From a virus, in the IMG/VR virus record IMGVR_UViG_3300034071_000175, positions 1-39,693 of that record: a stretch of 39,693 nucleotides of DNA; one strand, written 5' to 3'. Of this stretch, positions 3,290 through 34,715 are shown piece after piece; within the stretch, counting starts at the first letter, position 1, and each line of letters begins with the position of its first letter. The notes under the pieces are model-generated. The model ran no database searches, had not been told where the DNA came from, and saw only the letters and a list, made by a program, of their open reading frames with translations. A program made the position numbers and the translations under genes.

Positions 3290-6200
3290 ACGCCCTTTCT
3301 ATAGAAGCACCCATTACATCACGGGAATACTTGTTTAACATAGGAACAAATATTAGACGGGTTGCTTCTTTAACTGATGGGTCAAAGGCTAACTCTCCAA
3401 GAATTGCCATAACTTCTTCTTTCATACGTTTACGGTCATCCGAAAATGTATACAACTGTTTATAGGCTGGGTTAGTTGAATAATCAACAAAACCTTGAAC
3501 TTCGTTAATTGCAAGACGCATAGCAATTCTAGTATCTTTTGATATAGGTGATGTTTTATCATCTACAGCACCTTTAATATCTCTAAACATAGTCTTTAAA
3601 TCACGACCAGATATATTGTCATCTAATGAATCTTCTAACTCTGGATTAGAAAGTAACAATGCTTGCTGTTCAGCATCAGCCAAAGCGATTATACTCTGCC
3701 GTTCTTGATAGTCAGTAGCACTCGCTAACTTTTCTGTTAGTGCATCATTGATTGCATAATACTTTTCTTTATCGCTGGCTATCTGAACTTTGTTTAAATA
3801 CTCAGCAAAGTCAGCACGTTTAATTAATCCTTGAGATTCCATCCAACTATAAATATCTGGATTGTATTCTCCTACTTTAGGTGAAAATATAAAACCAATA
3901 CCAGACTCACTATAGTTATCTATAAATCGTTTGTTATCTATAGACCATTGTTTTAGTTCATCGGTCTTTGCTATAACCGCCTTAAAGGCTTTGTTGGTTT
4001 TAGGTATTGTATAAACAGCCTTACCTGGATTGCTGCCAATAAACATAGCAATTGCTAACTCAAATGGATTTGTTACTTCAGGATTTGTTTTTATTACACC
4101 TTCATAGATGTCCCAAAAAGCACTGCTCCAAGTACTAACACCATTTTCTTTAATAAAGTCTGGTAAACCTTTGCTATCTTTAAGACTTGGATAGGCTGGA
4201 TTTAACATACCTATCATTGCTTGGGCAAGAGTTACATTGCCAGCAGCAGTCTTTAAGTTTTGTAAGTACTGTCTTTTTTCTTTGCTAGTAGCATTATCTG
4301 GCACACCATTGCCATATGCTTCTAAATAAGATATAGCCTGAAATACAGCGTTGCCTTTATTTTTATTAACTTCTGCTGGAGACAAAGCATCCCAGGCTGA
4401 AGTAGCCATCATTGGAAAAGCCATTCTTACTGCTTCACCAATATCAGTATTTTGACCAATATGACCCATAGCAAATTTATCTAAATAATCGGCTGCTTCG
4501 TTAGTCCAAGGATAAATTTTATCTTCCCAATTTGCTGGCAATAAAGCACTTGCAACTGGTAAATCACGGAGGAACCATTTAGCAGCAGTAATACTTAACC
4601 CTGCTATTGGACCAGCAAAGGCTGGTTGTCCTGCATCGGGAGCAAAAGATGGGTTAATTAATCTAAACTTAAATGCAAATTCATTAAAAGAACCAACCTT
4701 GTAATCAACATTAAAAGCGCTAAGAGTTTTTTGCATAACAGTATTCATAACAATATCTGTAGGCATTGTTAAATATTCATCGCCATTTTCATCTTCATAC
4801 ACGGAGCCCATATTTTCTAGACCATAGTGCAAAAGACGTAAACGCATTAACGCTTTTGGTGTTTCTTTTGTATATAGACGATAAACACGGCGTTGAAAAT
4901 CTTCAGTAGCACGGAAAAATCGGCTTACATATCGAATAGATAAAGCAAAATTAGAACGGATATTAGGATTATCAACAAACTCTAATACAGAATCAGTAGC
5001 CATATTAACCGCAATATTACTTACAGTTTTATCTGCCATCTCATCGGCCCTTGCTCTAGCCACTTCAGGCTTCATAAAAGGCTTAGCCTCTAACATTGCG
5101 CTATAATGACGGTCAGACAACATCTTTTCATAAGGCTTTAAATCATCAAAGGCTTTGTTAATAGCCACACGCATTGCTGGTAAACGGAAAAAACCTGTTA
5201 CTTGACGGTCCATCATTTCAAGAACCATATCTGGAAATTTTGCATAGATTTTTTCAAGAGTACCTAAGTCTTCTTTAAGGTTATCTAAGTCAACAACCTT
5301 TCCATTTCCTACCAAACGAGTATTTATATATCCAGAAAAAGGACGCTTACCTACAGTAGCCTCATCAAATTCTTTCCAAGTTAGATTATTAGCAGCACGA
5401 GACCAAGCGTTAGCAACTGGTTTCTTTTGACGGCTAGCCGCTTTAATAACCTCTGCATATTTCTTTTGCATCAATTGAAATAAGTCTTCATTAAACCCGT
5501 CTGCGCTACCGTGAAAAGCAAACCGCATATCATTCAATATACGTTCTGCATAAATACGTGCTATTTCTGGGTCTGATACATTTTGCTGGCGGAAATATAC
5601 GGTTTCGCCAAAGTTAGATAGGGCTGCTTGTAGTTTCTTAGCATCCAATATGTCATACATAGCAGTTGCTTCATTATAGGTAGCGCCCATCTGTTCCATA
5701 AGTTCAGTTCGTGCGCTAGAAAAGTTACTGCTTGGCTTCATAGAGCCAAAAAAGTCATCATTCTTTAAACCATTATTTTTATAAAATACACTTACTGGGT
5801 CAAGATAATCATTGCCAATTAATTTAATTTGATTAAAACCAAAACGAACAGCAAAGTTATCCCACATAGAGATACCAAGTTCTAGTTCACTCATCTTCTT
5901 TATCTCTTTAGGAGTATAAAGTCCTGAACGTTCTAAGCCTAATTCTTTAATAAATAAAGTTAATTGGTCTACATTAAAAACAGAGTCAAAGAAATCTCTA
6001 TCCATCCTGCCAGCGATTAAATCACGAGCACCCATAGATGCTGTCATAGCCTCTGCAAAGTTAGGATTGTTACGCAATACGCGTTTCCAGTTATCCCATT
6101 CTGGGCCATCTACTTTAAGTATTTGTTCCACTCGGGAAATAATTGCTTCTTTAATAAATGCTGGCTGTATCTCAGACATAGGAACTTCATACCCAACATC

Positions 6201-28454: not shown

Positions 28455-29186
28455 TTATTCTCCTTGTTGCTCTTGTTCCTTCAGTTTTGTCTTTAAATGT
28501 TCGTTAGCCCAATACAATGCATAGTAGTCATAGTCAACGCTAAAGCGTTTCATATGCTTTACCAGTGCTCCAGTATGGGCGTGTAGTGGTATGCCAGCCT
28601 TCTTCATACGGCGGAAGAAAATAATATCTTCGCCGATAAACTTACTGTCATCAGCATCACCGCGTTCCATAAACATAGACTGACCAGGATAGGCAGCCCT
28701 CATCTTAGGAACTATAGACTTGTGCATAAGCACAAATCCAAAGCCTGCTGAGTCACATCTGATTACCTGATTCTCTGGTAATGGGTGGTGATAGCGAACT
28801 TGAAACTCATCTACATCATCAAATAGAACTGGGAACGGGCGCATAAGACTGCCCTCGTTCTCCTTAGATATGAAGTAAACACCGCTAACTACTGGACGAT
28901 TTACCTTATCGGCTGTCTGCCAGAGTTTCTGGATAGCCTCAAGGCTTAGAACTATGTCTGAATCTACCCATAGTATCCAGTCTGTCTTGAGTTTATCTGC
29001 CCAGTAATCAAAGAGTATCTGGCGTTGTCTGCCTATCTGATTACCCTGCACACGTATGCTGGTACTAATTTTCATACCGTTGTTAGGACCAGCAATTACT
29101 GCTGTCATTAATCCTTCGGTAAACTTACCATCGGTGGTGCCATTGTCGCACCAACCGATAGCCACTGTCTCTTGCTTTTGTATCAT
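28455..29186 (-). CDS. Glycosyltransferase, GT-A fold
   Basis: The product is 243 aa. The nucleotide-sugar site WVDSDIVL (about 73-80) holds the D-x-D metal motif. DSAGFGFVLMHKSI (145-158) is the acceptor-side region, and IGEDIIFFRRMKKAGI (184-199) carries the Glu-Asp typical of inverting GT-A enzymes. There is no membrane anchor. AGGGGA precedes the ATG. It is embedded in the tail genes, directly after the glycine-rich adhesins. It may glycosylate virion fibres or alter a host surface glycan during infection; both are inference. Confidence 0.85.
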   Translation of the reverse strand: MIQKQETVAIGWCDNGTTDGKFTEGLMTAVIAGPNNGMKISTSIRVQGNQIGRQRQILFDYWADKLKTDWILWVDSDIVLSLEAIQKLWQTADKVNRPVVSGVYFISKENEGSLMRPFPVLFDDVDEFQVRYHHPLPENQVIRCDSAGFGFVLMHKSIVPKMRAAYPGQSMFMERGDADDSKFIGEDIIFFRRMKKAGIPLHAHTGALVKHMKRFSVDYDYYALYWANEHLKTKLKEQEQQGE

Positions 29187-29202: not shown

Positions 29203-29544
29203 TTATTGCTCTAGTTCATCCCAAGATAGTGTTTCTTCGTTCCAAATCCAAAATCCTTCTTTAGGTTTAGGAGTAGGAGGTTGCCAGTCGTGGTTAGCAT
29301 CTAGGTTCCACGATGAATATGGTTGCGGTGCAACAAATACATCTGCTATTGGGTCATAGGTAAAACCAACACCCGCATATTGTTTGCGGATATTGTTATT
29401 GTAGGAAGTGCGTTTGCAAGTTTGACCTCTGAAATTACCATACCAGATTTCAGTATCCAAACCTTCTATCAATTCAGTTTCATCTATGCCAGGGATAACT
29501 TCAGTTACTATATTATTTTCATCTAAAAATGCGTAGTATGCCAT
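29203..29544 (-). CDS. Adhesin-partner protein B, 113 aa
   Basis: The start MAYYAF overlaps the upstream Gly-rich gene stop (TAATG). It is a paralogue of the gene at 30407-30769. Shared elements are RTSYNNNIRKQYAGVGFTYD against QTSYNGTIRKNYAGIGYTYD, the APQPY-SW segment, and a C-terminus with WNEETLSWDE. Similar short proteins accompany tail fibres in cyanophages and other marine and freshwater phages. A chaperone or fibre-tip role is plausible but unproven. Confidence 0.75.
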   Translation of the reverse strand: MAYYAFLDENNIVTEVIPGIDETELIEGLDTEIWYGNFRGQTCKRTSYNNNIRKQYAGVGFTYDPIADVFVAPQPYSSWNLDANHDWQPPTPKPKEGFWIWNEETLSWDELEQ

Positions 29545-30407
29545 TATGCCCAACTCACATTTCCCGTGCCGTCTGTTATTGTTGTTACTTTGTGAGAACC
29601 ATCTGTTGCTGTGCTACCCGTCAAACCTGCTCCAATGGTAATTGTTCCATCAGCCGTCAAATAACGAAGTATTACTACACCTTTGCCACCTGCGCCGCCT
29701 GCAGAACCACCAGCAGTTGTTCCTCCGCCACCACCACCACCTGTGTTAGCAGTTCCTGCACCACCAGTTGCTGCCGTAGAGCCACCAGTACCATTTCCTC
29801 CGCCACCAGCACCTCCTGAAGCACCTGGGCGGTCAAACTGGTCGCCTGCGCCACCGCCTCCGCCACCACGGGTTACTGATGTGCCCGTAATAGAAGATGC
29901 TGTTCCAGCGCCACCTTCTCCACCTGTTCCAGGAAACCCTGCATTTCTAACATTTCCAGCCGCGCCAGCACCACCGCCACCACCGCCACAAGTTCCTTCA
30001 TTAGAAACTGCGCCATTATTGCCCTCAGATGGCGAAAAACTTCCTTCATTTCCTGAACCTGCGGTGCCTGTGCTACGGATACCGCCACCAGACCCACCAT
30101 TGCCACCTGGCGAACCATCTTTACCTGCCCCACCGCCAGTAGAAGTTATAGTAGAAAATGTCGATGCTGTTCCTTTGGTTTGACTAGCACCCCCACCGCC
30201 TACTGTAACTGTGTAATTAGTGTTTTTACTAACGGACAAAGTAGAAGTTCTATATCCACCAGCACCACCACCTCCACCACCATTAGCGCCTCCGCCTCCA
30301 CCGCCTGCAATAGTTAAATGTTCAACATTAAAAGAGGGCTCAAAAGCAGTATTACCTACTAGCAGGTTACCCCTGCGTAGTTTATTCTTTATGCTGACTA
30401 CAGCCAT
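29544..30407 (-). CDS. Glycine-rich adhesin-like tail protein C, 287 aa
   Basis: The N-terminus (about 1-45) ends in a beta strand motif FNVEHLTIAGGGGGGANG. Most of the remaining sequence consists of Gly-rich loops (GGGGGGAGG, GGSGGG, GGAGTA) separated by short Ser/Thr strands. The end, about 245-287, is a more ordinary beta domain starting GVVILRYLTADGTIT. The composition resembles polyglycine-II adhesins such as T4-like gp38. It is the third of three related genes. The ATG overlaps the previous stop. Confidence 0.8.
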   Translation of the reverse strand: MAVVSIKNKLRRGNLLVGNTAFEPSFNVEHLTIAGGGGGGANGGGGGGAGGYRTSTLSVSKNTNYTVTVGGGGASQTKGTASTFSTITSTGGGAGKDGSPGGNGGSGGGIRSTGTAGSGNEGSFSPSEGNNGAVSNEGTCGGGGGGAGAAGNVRNAGFPGTGGEGGAGTASSITGTSVTRGGGGGGAGDQFDRPGASGGAGGGGNGTGGSTAATGGAGTANTGGGGGGGTTAGGSAGGAGGKGVVILRYLTADGTITIGAGLTGSTATDGSHKVTTITDGTGNVSWA

Positions 30408-30769
30408 TAAATTACTACCTCATCCCAAGATAGTGTTTCTTCGTTCCAGGTATACATCTTGTCGTCAGTTGGATAAGGTGTTGGTGGTTGCCATATAGCA
30501 TCAGCATCTAGTGTCCAAGAAGGATATGGCTGAGGGGCATAGAAGTAGTCATTTGCTACATCATAAGTATAACCAATGCCTGCATAGTTTTTACGAATAG
30601 TACCGTTATAGGAAGTCTGCTTCCACTTGGTATCTTCACCAAAGAGTGACTTGCAGAAGATAACTCCTTTAGTTTCAGACTCAACGCCATCTAGTAGGAG
30701 TTCTTCATTAGCCACCACGATTACTTGTGTGACTACATTGTTGTCGTTTAGTTGTGCAAAGTGTGCCAT
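30407..30769 (-). CDS. Adhesin-partner protein A, 120 aa
   Basis: Paralogue of the gene at 29203-29544. It starts MAHFAQLNDNNVVTQVIVV, then has a Cys-containing central part (GVIFCKSLFGEDTKWKQ), the conserved RKNYAGIGYTYD, the APQPYPSWTLDAD turn, and a C-terminal WNEETLSWDE. The ATG overlaps the stop of the upstream Gly-rich gene. It forms a two-gene module with one adhesin-like protein. Confidence 0.75.
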   Translation of the reverse strand: MAHFAQLNDNNVVTQVIVVANEELLLDGVESETKGVIFCKSLFGEDTKWKQTSYNGTIRKNYAGIGYTYDVANDYFYAPQPYPSWTLDADAIWQPPTPYPTDDKMYTWNEETLSWDEVVI

Positions 30770-31671
30770 TAGTAGGTTATACTCCCGCTTCCGTTGAACT
30801 GATAAATATGATAACTACCTGAAGTAGTATAGGTTGGGCTACCTGTAGTAGATGCTGCAGCCTGGGTAGCACGCAAAATTACTACTCCTGAACCACCACT
30901 GCCACCTGCAGTATCTTGAAATTCTCCTGAACCTCCACCACCTGAACCTGAGTTAGTAGTTCCATTTTTAGTGTTAGGCCAAGTTGAATTATTTCCACCA
31001 TAACCGCCACCACCGCTTCCACCAGCAGCATTTCCTGAAGTACCATTAGAACCGCCACCGCCACCACCTGCATAAGTTACCGATGAACCTGTAATAGAAA
31101 CTGCAACTCCAGCACCACCTGAACCACCAGTATCACCAGAAGCGCCATTTCCAGCACCGCTTGCTCCACCACCGCCGCCTGCAGCAGTACTACTTTTAGG
31201 GCCACCATCACGACCTTGATTTGCAGTGCCTGTACCAACCGCTCCTGAACCAGCGTGTCCTTGACCACCTCCAGAACCACCATTTAATCCTGATTCTAAA
31301 GATACATTTCCACCACCACCTCCACCACCTGTTGAGGTTATTGTGGTTATTCCTGTTCCACTTATAGATGAATTTACTCCGCTAACACCTCTTTGGCCAG
31401 ATGTGGTTGCACCACCGCCTGCACCACCAACTGTTACTGTATAAGCAACACCTTGTCTAAGATTGGCTGCAGATTCTAAAGAACCACCACCACCAGTTGC
31501 AGTTACCGTTGAACGCAATCCACCAGCGCCACCGCCTGCACCACGGTTTGTTCCACCACCACCACCGCCTGCGATAATTAAATAATCAACAGAAACGGTT
31601 GGCGCATAAAAATCATTACCAACAAGTAGGCTACGGCTAAATGTTCCGTTCTTAAGACTTCTAATTGCCAT
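30769..31671 (-). CDS. Glycine-rich adhesin-like tail protein B, 300 aa
   Basis: Same layout as its neighbours: an N-terminal motif with SLLVGNDFYAPTVSVDYLII, then Gly-rich loops interrupted by short beta segments (AYTVTVGGAGGG, TTITSTGGGG, SITGSSVTYAGG), and a C-terminal cap with GVVILRATQ. AAGGGG precedes the ATG. The high Gly content would fit a polyglycine-II sandwich exposing variable loops for receptor binding. Confidence 0.8.
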   Translation of the reverse strand: MAIRSLKNGTFSRSLLVGNDFYAPTVSVDYLIIAGGGGGGTNRGAGGGAGGLRSTVTATGGGGSLESAANLRQGVAYTVTVGGAGGGATTSGQRGVSGVNSSISGTGITTITSTGGGGGGGNVSLESGLNGGSGGGQGHAGSGAVGTGTANQGRDGGPKSSTAAGGGGGASGAGNGASGDTGGSGGAGVAVSITGSSVTYAGGGGGGSNGTSGNAAGGSGGGGYGGNNSTWPNTKNGTTNSGSGGGGSGEFQDTAGGSGGSGVVILRATQAAASTTGSPTYTTSGSYHIYQFNGSGSITY

Positions 31672-31680
31672 TAGTACCCC

Positions 31681-32604
31681 TTATGCTGCATATCTAATAA
31701 TTACAATACCTGAACCACCATTACCACCTTGTTTACTACCATCATTAGAGTTACCACCACCACCACCGCCGCCGCCTGTGTTAGCAGTTGCGTTAGTTCC
31801 GTTTGTATTACTTGCTGTGCCAGCACCACCACCACCAGTTCCAGCAGCGCCGCCAGTTGTGTTTCCACCGCCACCACCGCCACCAGCAAAATAATAAGTT
31901 CCGCTTGAAAGTTGTCCAGCGCCTGTTGTGGCTCCGCCTGATATTGATGTTGATGAACCTACGCCACCAGCACCGCCAACTGATGTAGCAGAAGCCGCAG
32001 TTCCAGTTCCACCAGCACCGCCACCACCACCGCCTGAAAAATCTCCTGCTGGACCTCGGCCAGCACCACCGTTATTACCTTCAGACGGAGAATATGAACC
32101 TGAGTTACCTGTTCCAGCAGTGCGAGCGCCTGTTTCATTACCGCCACCGCCTCCGCCTGAACCACCATTTGCACCTACGGAACCAGTTGGATAATTATAG
32201 TTCCTGCTTCCACCATAACCACCACCACTTGATGTGATGGTTGAAAAAGTAGAATTATTTCCAGAGTTTCCTAATCCTGAACCAGTTTGACCAGCGCCAC
32301 CTGCGCCCACTGTTACTGTGTATGCCTGAGCAGTTAAAGATAAACTTGTTCCTGTTCTAAAACCACCAGCACCACCGCCACCGCCTGAGTCTGCGCCACC
32401 ACTTCCACCGCCAGCAACTACTAGGGCTTCGGCAGTAAAACTTTGATTAGGAGTAAATGTTCCTGATGAATTAAATGTGTGATAAACATAGCCACCACCA
32501 ATGGTAACAGTTCCACCAGTTGCTTTTGTTACCTCATATGCCGTATTACCAACAAGCAGGCTAGACGGAGATACCGTACCAGTCTTGTAACTTGTAATGG
32601 ACAT
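31681..32604 (-). CDS. Glycine-rich adhesin-like tail protein A, 307 aa
   Basis: It begins with a short beta-rich head (about 1-65, VGNTAYEVTKATGGTVTIGG), then the shared strand ALVVAGGGSGGADSGGGGG and long Gly-rich loops. Conserved interior segments occur with protein C, for example SPSEGNNGGAG. The end is IVIIRYAA, without the longer cap of the other two. The ATG overlaps the upstream stop (TAATG). Confidence 0.8.
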   Translation of the reverse strand: MSITSYKTGTVSPSSLLVGNTAYEVTKATGGTVTIGGGYVYHTFNSSGTFTPNQSFTAEALVVAGGGSGGADSGGGGGAGGFRTGTSLSLTAQAYTVTVGAGGAGQTGSGLGNSGNNSTFSTITSSGGGYGGSRNYNYPTGSVGANGGSGGGGGGNETGARTAGTGNSGSYSPSEGNNGGAGRGPAGDFSGGGGGGAGGTGTAASATSVGGAGGVGSSTSISGGATTGAGQLSSGTYYFAGGGGGGGNTTGGAAGTGGGGAGTASNTNGTNATANTGGGGGGGGNSNDGSKQGGNGGSGIVIIRYAA

Positions 32605-32939
32605 TAGACTGAAGCCTCATCTCCGAACGCTTGGAAAGCAACAGTTGCTGTAGAGGCATAGATTTTGATGACATCACCAGTAGCAAGGGTAATACCTACT
32701 GTGATGATTGTAGTGTCAGATAAACCAACAGTAATATCCTTACCAAAGTATTGTTTGTCTAGGATAGTTGCTGATACATCAGCCGAAGGCTGTATGATAA
32801 TACGGAAGGTAGCAGATGTTGCAGCAAGGTTTGCTACAGATATGCTAGATACCACTGCCTCTTTAGCGGAAGGTACTGTGTATAGAGTTGTTACAGTTGT
32901 CGCAGATGGGTTTGATTGCCCAAGGACTTTTTTAGCCAT
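32604..32939 (-). CDS. Small beta-rich tail protein, 111 aa
   Basis: The protein is beta-rich and Ala/Thr/Ser/Val-rich, starting MAKKVLGQSNPSATTVTTLY and including a hydrophobic strand pair (TIITVGITLATGDVIKIYA). Small proteins of this pattern commonly sit between fibre genes in marine and freshwater phages. They may cap or link fibres. An AAAGGAG site precedes the ATG. No enzymatic motif is visible. Confidence 0.7.
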   Translation of the reverse strand: MAKKVLGQSNPSATTVTTLYTVPSAKEAVVSSISVANLAATSATFRIIIQPSADVSATILDKQYFGKDITVGLSDTTIITVGITLATGDVIKIYASTATVAFQAFGDEASV

Positions 32940-32954
32940 TTAGTTATTTCTCCT

Positions 32955-34715
32955 TTAAGCGCCCATCAGCATAAATACTGACGGTGTTGGGTCGGTTATA
33001 ATTGCTGCCCACGAAGCGGTTGTTCCGTTCGTAGTTAAATATTTTCCTGTGTTTCCAGTCTGAGATGGTAGAGCATCTACAGTAGACCAGGCTAATCCTG
33101 ATGTAGTGGCTGAGTCAGCCTTAAGATACTGTCCATTAGTTCCTACTGTAAGAATTACTGGGGTGTCATCAGCGCTAGCCGAAAGTATGTCACCTTTAGC
33201 AGCAAAGACTGTTGGCTGAATTACTGCAGTAGTATCTAGGTTCAGAGTTACAGTTCCAGATGTTCCGCCACCAGTTAATCCTGTACCAGCAGTAACTCCA
33301 GTAATATCTCCAGCATTGGCTGGGCTCCACTCAAGTCCTGTTGCTGTTGCGCTGTTAACACTTAAGACATAGCCATTAGTTGCAGCAACTGTTAGTTGGT
33401 CAAAAGAAGATGCACCTGTACCTACTAGTAAATCACCCTTTGCATCAAAGGAAGCAGCGACAGCAGCAGCAGCACTTGCTGCAGATACAGCAGCAGAGTT
33501 AGCAGAAGTTAGAGCAGATGAAGCAGATGTGCTTGCACTAGCAGCAGATGTAGCAGCAGCAGTTGCACTGGCTGCAGCAGATGTTGCTGAAGTTGCAGCA
33601 GCGGAGGCTGATGTAGCCGAAGCAGTTGCTGAAGTAGCAGAAGATGTAGCCGAAGTGCTGGCTGAGTTAGCCGAGGTTAAGGCAGAAGATGCAGAGGTGC
33701 TAGCCGAAGCAGCAGAAGTTGCTGCAGCAGCAGCGGAGGCTGCAACTGCTGACTCACTGGCTGCAGCACTAGTTGCACTAGTAGCCGCTGCTGTGGCAGA
33801 AGCCGCTGCAGAAGTAGCCGAGGTGGCTGCGCTAGTAGCGCTTGTGGCTGCTGCTGAGGCACTCGTTGCCGAGGCTGTAGCGCTATTAGAGGCACTTGTA
33901 GCACTGGTAGCAGCAGAAGCAGCACTTGTAGCAGCCGATGCTGCTGAAGTGGCTGCAGCCGTTGCTGAGCCTAGAATGCTATCTACATAATCCTTAGGGG
34001 TAGCAGAGGATGAAATCATACCTGCGCTAGATAGACCAGTGATGACAGGGCTACCAGAGATGGTAGGGCTGGTCAGGGTCTTATTGGTCAGGGTCTGAGT
34101 AGCATCAGCAATGACTACCGTACCTGTGGTATTAGGTAGGGTGATTGTATTATCCTGAGTAGGCTCTGTTACTGTCAGGGTAGTTTCATAAGGGTCTGCG
34201 TTAGTTCCTTCAAAAACAATAGAAGAAGGAGCAGTTGGTGTTCCAGTAAATACTGGGTCAGAAATTGTTGGGGCTGTAAGAGTCTTGTTAGTAAGAGTCT
34301 GTGTCTTAAGAGTTCCTACTACATCACCTTCACCAGATGTAATGCCGTGCATTGACTGGGCATTACCATCGCCATCATTATAAGAGGCAGAAGCCTGTGT
34401 ATGTAAATTGGCATCACGGTAATCTCTACCGATAGCCATATGTCTTACTACTGCACCTGCTGAGTGTGACTGTGCAGATGAACCATCAATGGCTCGGGTG
34501 ATTGTAAATGTATTGGTAGATACCGCCGTAGCATCTACGATTTCTTCAAGAGCAGTATCTACATCTATGACTAAAGTGAAAGTTCTACCTGATGGGATTG
34601 TTACACCACCAAGTAAGGCTGTGCCTGATACTACTGTCATAGTAGCAGCACCTGCGGTTATAGCACTAGTCAGTGTTGACTGTTGGCTACGAGACGAGTA
34701 TTGACGTGTTGGCAT
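32955..34715 (-). CDS. Tail fibre with Ala/Ser/Thr stalk, 586 aa
   Basis: The N-terminal 245 residues are beta-rich, with two copies of QTLTNKTLT-PTIS (about 139-152 and 207-220) and an attachment-like region. Residues about 250-422 are nearly all Ala, Ser and Thr, in short repeated words such as SAATSATSA, typical of trimeric fibre stalks. The C-terminal 160 residues contain three related repeats, AKGDLLVGTG...L-W, AKGDILSASAD...LAWS and a shorter GKYLTTNGTTASW, as in phage fibre tip domains. AGGAAC precedes the ATG. It probably carries the receptor-binding complex. Confidence 0.85.
   Translation of the reverse strand: MPTRQYSSRSQQSTLTSAITAGAATMTVVSGTALLGGVTIPSGRTFTLVIDVDTALEEIVDATAVSTNTFTITRAIDGSSAQSHSAGAVVRHMAIGRDYRDANLHTQASASYNDGDGNAQSMHGITSGEGDVVGTLKTQTLTNKTLTAPTISDPVFTGTPTAPSSIVFEGTNADPYETTLTVTEPTQDNTITLPNTTGTVVIADATQTLTNKTLTSPTISGSPVITGLSSAGMISSSATPKDYVDSILGSATAAATSAASAATSAASAATSATSASNSATASATSASAAATSATSAATSATSAAASATAAATSATSAAASESAVAASAAAAATSAASASTSASSALTSANSASTSATSSATSATASATSASAAATSATSAAASATAAATSAASASTSASSALTSANSAAVSAASAAAAVAASFDAKGDLLVGTGASSFDQLTVAATNGYVLSVNSATATGLEWSPANAGDITGVTAGTGLTGGGTSGTVTLNLDTTAVIQPTVFAAKGDILSASADDTPVILTVGTNGQYLKADSATTSGLAWSTVDALPSQTGNTGKYLTTNGTTASWAAIITDPTPSVFMLMGA
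33492..33713 (-). repeat. Internal duplication in the fibre stalk
   Basis: An 18-residue word (AASASTSASSALTSANSA) occurs at residues 335-352 (33660-33713) and again at 391-408 (33492-33545), 56 residues apart, with related sequence between. The two DNA copies use different codons at about half the positions although the amino acids are identical. Confidence 0.75.

Follow-up and report, generated by a model that had tools for sequence, protein, structure and literature searches.

The closest described counterpart of the genes considered here is the Pam3 fibre gp24 with its small chaperone gp25, encoded directly after it (PDB 7YPX; PMC9608196). The strands of the TNF-like domain of gp24 run into a glycine-rich stack, the distal tips of which were proposed to bind the host, and gp25 was not detected in virions (PMC9608196). 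The same work likens gp24 to S16 gp38 (PDB 6F45), which also presents glycine-rich receptor-binding loops. In Tfa/Caudo_TAP proteins (TfaMu, lambda Tfa and T4 gp38), a small gene likewise lies directly downstream of a fibre gene, and a beta-sandwich N-terminal domain has been reported for gp25 and TfaMu. We analysed a window of 39,693 bases, the entire IMG/VR record IMGVR_UViG_3300034071_000175, which encodes three glycine-rich proteins (GlyA, GlyB and GlyC) and two small partner proteins (A and B) of the family PHROG_7759. As in Pam3, the gene of a predicted TNF-like/glycine-rich head is directly followed by that of a small candidate chaperone. The reading we favour, with a probability of about 0.6, is that these genes form a modular host-recognition array, in which a minimal Tfa-like chaperone serves exchangeable TNF-like/glycine-rich heads, some of which are probably circular permutants.

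A first-pass annotation had proposed the gene order GlyA, GlyB with partner A, and GlyC with partner B. All five open reading frames (ORFs) are present in that order on the minus strand:

31681–32604, minus strand: GlyA, slot 1; 307 amino acids, 34% Gly; Gly_rich_2; a partner gene does not follow directly.
32545–32604, minus strand: segment coding for the slot 1 N-terminal anchor, MSITSYKTGTVSPSSLLVGN.
30769–31671, minus strand: GlyB, slot 2; 300 amino acids, 32% Gly; Gly_rich_2.
31615–31671, minus strand: segment coding for the slot 2 N-terminal anchor, MAIRSLKNGTFSRSLLVGN.
30407–30769, minus strand: partner A, 120 amino acids, subtype I; PHROG_7759; candidate minimal tail-fibre chaperone.
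30420–30448, minus strand: tract of 29 nucleotides (nt), TGGAACGAAGAAACACTATCTTGGGATGA, which lies close to the 3' end of partner A and recurs unchanged in partner B.
29544–30407, minus strand: GlyC, slot 3; 287 amino acids, 34% Gly; Gly_rich_2; type II tail.
30351–30407, minus strand: segment coding for the slot 3 N-terminal anchor, MAVVSIKNKLRRGNLLVGN.
29203–29544, minus strand: partner B, 113 amino acids, subtype II; PHROG_7759.
29216–29244, minus strand: second copy of this 29-nt tract (TGGAACGAAGAAACACTATCTTGGGATGA), close to the 3' end of partner B.

All three glycine-rich proteins belong to the Pfam family Gly_rich_2 (PF21722), with scores of 60.4 (GlyA), 47.2 (GlyB) and 47.9 bits (GlyC) against a curated cut-off of 24.3 bits. 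A literature search found no paper naming Gly_rich_2 or PF21722 and, at the stringency used, none linking TNF-like, ALK and phage receptor-binding proteins. The single-chain AlphaFold2 (AF2) model of GlyB, built from a 65-row alignment, had a predicted local distance difference test score (pLDDT) of 93 and a predicted template modelling score of 0.89. Fold comparison of this model, and of that of partner A, covered PDB chains ranked by Foldseek. The best match of GlyB was the tail-tip protein of mycobacteriophage Bxb1 (PDB 9D93 chain Qb; Z 14.2, 169 residues, 28% identity), which belongs to a different tail setting. Pam3 gp24 came next (Z 12.2 and 11.1, 166 residues), so that GlyB is predicted to adopt the TNF-like/glycine-rich fold, and ALK/LTK gave a weak match (Z 5–5.7) to TNF-like glycine-rich domains that have a similar strand-plus-glycine-loop architecture but belong to animal receptors with no phage context. 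S16 gp38, the example cited in the first-pass annotation, is thus not the nearest of the folds found: it is not among the GlyB fold matches listed. It further differs in sitting on gp37 and having three short attachment helices. In a sequence-profile search of the PDB with GlyB, the Pam3 fibre reached an E-value of about 1 only; tblastn with GlyB gave no matches, probably owing to its low-complexity filter. No N-terminal alpha-helical docking domain was seen in the GlyB model, residues 1–20 being without helix at pLDDT 57–65; a short anchor peptide takes the place of the helical N-terminal domain of the Pam3 fibre. Among GlyB relatives, variability was 2.18 bits at non-glycine loop residues, compared with 1.24 bits in strands and 0.85 bits at loop glycines. 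The elevated loop variation that had been predicted was thus observed, and the pattern would fit loop tips as the host-contact surface, as proposed for Pam3.

The three slots can be told apart by their anchors. Slots were assigned by gene order in 13 phages (the window and 12 relatives), and the first 19 residues were taken as the anchor. Anchors are slot-specific: across phages, those of one slot are 72% identical and those of different slots 44% (p 0.0005, the lowest value that 2000 permutations allow). The Gly bodies of these 13 phages showed 51.8% identity within and 51.5% between slots (p 0.56), in a test whose power is limited because low complexity and composition set a high identity floor. 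This combination fits what cassette exchange would give. DNA identity along GlyB and partner A is stepped in the same manner: the anchor is about 75–80% identical in most relatives, the body mostly 40–65%, the partner mostly 75–100% and the slot 3 anchor 85–100%, after which identity drops. Partner A is 82–96% identical in close relatives, beside Gly bodies at about 38–62%. The slot 3 anchor is common to relatives in which the slot 3 body is not glycine-rich (eight relatives and locus L011), and loci L012 and L013 have a Gly body in slot 3 with no partner after it. Considering these differences, GlyC and partner B are probably a type II cassette that was brought under the slot 3 anchor of this lineage. 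In the uncultured phage ct2KA10 (L171), three proteins that are not glycine-rich stand between the Gly genes and the partner; two extra short proteins (4740–5758), not glycine-rich and resembling the slot 3 body, lie between slot 3 and the partner.

We propose that each conserved anchor, of about 20 residues, marks one slot and probably docks its protein at a tail site of its own. The exchangeable head behind it would be a TNF-like beta-sandwich with strands extending into stacked glycine-rich loops, and the loop tips are the likely receptor-contact surface. Heads could be exchanged between slots and between phages by homologous recombination at two ends, one in the conserved anchor and the other in the conserved tail with the partner gene. 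The 29-nt tract, otherwise found in one of the loci retrieved (L003), could be this other recombination end, as a possible site of gene conversion or crossover.

The AF2 model of partner A (pLDDT 94) was compared with 61 PDB chains, a single one of which gave Z 2 or more. This was Pam3 gp25 (7ypx chain a), whose residues 3–57 superimpose on the N-terminal domain of partner A with Z 5.8 and a root-mean-square deviation of 1.8 Å over 55 residues (18% identity). With reserve, given the modest Z, partner A is therefore predicted to carry the N-terminal client-binding beta-sandwich of Tfa-type chaperones. Two separate searches, with GlyB and with partner A, thus landed on both halves of a solved fibre–chaperone complex. 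Pairwise sequence scores between the gp25 N-terminal domain and 3 of the 11 partners tried, those of CRP-207, Melnitz and ctn9Y15, were also above all 1000 shuffles (z 6.7–8.1). The partner probably works like a Tfa-type chaperone, and the most likely role of PHROG_7759 partners is that of small chaperones in assembly. A glycine-rich head would be held by the N-terminal beta-sandwich during folding, as gp24 is by gp25, and the partner would then leave before the virion is complete.

Several observations weigh against such a role. The C-terminal helical trimerisation domain of gp25 and of Tfa proteins is absent: the model of partner A shows no helix beyond residue 43, and the C-terminal half is tryptophan-rich, unlike that of gp25. 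The gp25 match itself is modest, and Foldseek alone, run on the PDB with the partner, returned nothing below an E-value of 1. A sequence-profile search of the PDB with the partner gave nothing convincing and a profile–profile comparison between the partner and gp25 no signal; the profile of the CRP-207-like subfamily scored gp25 just above 5000 shuffles, not above two unrelated ORFs. No match to Caudo_TAP (Pfam) was found in 97 members of the partner family at an E-value of 1, and gp25 itself likewise had none. It is the client-binding domain that varies in Pam3, whereas partner A is conserved. Partner A also follows last genes that are not glycine-rich (L171), 2-oxoglutarate (2OG)-Fe(II) oxygenases (L071, L086) and another protein (L016). 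Finally, fold and sequence matches are statements of relatedness, not of function. Because the trimerisation domain is absent and profile methods give no confirmation, we do not file the partner as a Tfa family member.

Some of these properties would suit a structural protein, a tip or cap, that is retained on the virion and takes part in receptor contact, the array then comprising glycine-rich heads and a conserved second adhesin. The partner is strongly conserved, it has its own tryptophan-rich half (about residues 57–120) outside the sole fold match, and it occurs after proteins that are not glycine-rich. Nevertheless, we consider this explanation rather unlikely, since the fold match of the N-terminal domain is to the client-binding domain of a chaperone undetected in virions, and a host-contact protein would be expected to vary, whereas few proteins of the array vary as little as partner A. 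The idea of a chaperone or tip dedicated to each adhesin does not survive in its strict form. GlyA has no direct partner and relatives carry two or three Gly genes per partner, so that several heads can share one partner, unlike in Pam3. Because partner A changes little beside bodies that differ widely, and because two or three adhesins often share it, a dedicated tip it is not. What stands of the idea is that the partner looks chaperone-like and that its subtype follows the tail type of the head.

This last linkage recurs among the loci in which subtype and tail were classed. Partner A matches PHROG_7759 at full length (residues 1–119, E-value 4e-43), as does partner B (4–114, 9e-32); among candidate viral-contig stretches, 192 relatives were found for partner A and 380 for partner B, and 41 phage records match partner A. 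Partners fall into subtypes I and II, each tied to its own Gly C-terminal tail type. Subtype II always occurs with tail II (44 cases dereplicated at 90%, plus 9 near-type II tails left unclassed by the strict pattern) and subtype I never does, statistics that are limited by related loci and by the choice of loci through the partner gene. A polypeptide with a glycine-rich stretch lies directly upstream of 139 of the 165 partners, compared with 51 of 869 in the background, and in 20 of the remaining 26 the upstream ORF is cut by the contig end. In a separate sample, a glycine-rich polypeptide was directly upstream in 72 of 74. Most partners are thus encoded directly downstream of a fibre or adhesin gene, as are Tfa-type chaperones. 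The pairing holds in most isolate phages examined (of SAR11, Roseobacter, Methylophilales and Synechococcus), with S-SSM5, S-MS29, S-CAM8 and DSL-LC04 as exceptions. One long upstream protein, ending in DUF7483 (L046), also bears Gly_rich_2 domains. No adhesin–partner fusions were seen among loci L001–L166; one long ORF considered as such a fusion was rejected as a frame artefact.

In S-SSM5, S-MS29, S-CAM8 and ct2KA10, other genes intervene between adhesin and partner, as might be seen if the partner were a hitchhiker, regulatory or related to lysis, that follows adhesin genes only because of operon structure. This is improbable: adjacency to glycine-rich polypeptides is far above background in unrelated phages, subtype and tail are linked, and the fold matches a fibre chaperone.

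Annotations around the partner vary between phages. In phiPsal1 (L174, 3292–3987), the annotated genes that precede the partner resemble a glycine-rich gene read out of frame, and a one-frame reading of the upstream stretch in Greip (L083, 1–420) gives a similar pattern. Three records give the annotation 'baseplate wedge protein gp6' to glycine-rich proteins (L179, 3037–3984; L180, 2949–3986; L183, 3145–3993). Genes for 2OG-Fe(II) oxygenases, some annotated as leprecan or phytanoyl-CoA dioxygenase, recur beside adhesin–partner genes in different phages (L071, L086, L167, L168, L169, L175, L176, L181, L182 and L183) and may possibly modify fibre residues.

The motifs common to partners A and B, from which the first-pass annotation concluded that a two-gene cassette had been duplicated, are real. 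Over their full length the partners share 53% identity (38% across the N-terminal half, 61% across the C-terminal half), and their 29-nt exact DNA match lies under WNEETLSWDE. A local duplication is not implied, because each partner is far closer to relatives in other phages. Partner A is 96% identical to that of L001 and partner B 88% to that of L087, the nearest relative found; among 171 other partners, B ranks 99th in the list of A, and A 82nd in that of B. Despite the two adjoining Gly–partner pairs and the 29-nt identity close to the 3' end of both partners, a tandem duplication in this phage is thus highly improbable, the more so as the two subtypes accompany different tails across many phages and the slot 3 anchor precedes a body that is not glycine-rich in the nine loci mentioned above. 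Without the duplication, the proposal of a cassette for host-range diversification agrees with the modular adhesin-type heads, the pattern of body exchange and the raised loop variation.

The heads themselves appear to exist in two forms. GlyA has the canonical order, in which a strand module, GGTVTIGGGYVYHTFNSSGTFTP, precedes the glycine-rich core and the protein ends in GIVIIRYAA, with the strand IVIIRY. GlyB and GlyC begin at the core, and the module is placed after an IVILR strand; in GlyB, the apparently permuted order ends with the module TTGSPTYTTSGSYHIYQFNGSGSITY, and the type II tail of GlyC reads TITIGAGLTG..TDGTGNVSWA. N- and C-terminal strand modules were mutually exclusive in the single-domain proteins of the set, as judged by a pattern match that overlooked the N-terminal module in a few proteins (e.g. 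L010 and L159). Of 87 C-terminal tails scored with a profile built from seven N-terminal strand modules, 30 exceeded the 99th percentile of shuffles; the GlyC tail of the window was not one of these. With hhalign, tail I matched the N-terminal module at an E-value of 6e-4, from just two N-module sequences, and tail II gave no signal. Intermediate C-terminal tails, such as GGTVTSSGGYTIHTFTSSGTF, were found in isolates. Considering these partial signals, the intermediate tails and the mutual exclusion of modules, GlyB-type heads are likely to be circularly permuted, a further difference from Pam3. Both forms were found in slots 1 and 2 of different relatives, so canonical and apparently permuted heads would fill the same slots.

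The window has a GC content of 42.8%, and terminase, portal and major head protein were recognised with PHROGs, indicating a small tailed phage. It is probably a freshwater phage. An actinobacterial host is likely because the major head protein shares 75% identity with its counterpart in ct2KA10 and about 44% with those of Streptomyces phages. The array belongs to a minus-strand gene run (34715–29203) that begins with two further genes:

32955–34715, minus strand: tail fibre protein, 586 amino acids (phrog_38058), upstream in the same gene run.
32604–32939, minus strand: 111-amino-acid protein (PHROG_1276; weak tail-fibre match phrog_693), adjoining slot 1 upstream and present in 13 relatives.

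TAATG overlaps occur at four junctions (111-amino-acid gene to GlyA, GlyB to partner A, partner A to GlyC and GlyC to partner B), and the genes therefore look translationally coupled. The program-made ORF list opens partner B at a TTG (29553); the ATG at 29544 is most likely its start, because relatives align there. Directly after the array, a glycosyltransferase-like gene (phrog_34859; 28455–29186, minus strand) is 81–91% identical in L003, L006 and L014 and is more conserved than the adhesins. Proline-rich plus-strand ORFs opposite the Gly genes (29529–32194) look like antisense shadows of glycine codons.

A wider form of the modular-array reading would combine slot-specific docking peptides, freely shuffled canonical and permuted TNF-like heads and a shared minimal chaperone without trimerisation domain, and the pair of head and chaperone would occur widely, in phages that infect cyanobacteria, SAR11, Roseobacter, Methylophilales and, probably, freshwater actinobacteria. 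We advance this version tentatively, at somewhat less than even odds. It recalls the metaviromic islands of marine phages, where host-recognition genes form variable islands in otherwise stable genomes; slot anchors, permuted heads and a small partner are not mentioned in the parts of that report consulted here (PMC3909814).

No function has been assigned to PHROG_7759, although aquatic phages carry it widely; a chaperone role, if true, would annotate both the partner and the gene beside it in many genomes. A glycine-rich TNF-like head that is permuted in nature, if true, would offer a handle for structural work. Slot anchors with exchangeable bodies picture concretely, at the level of sequence, how uncultivated aquatic phages may alter the surface with which they recognise hosts and, if this picture is true, these phages have a modular way to change their binding target.

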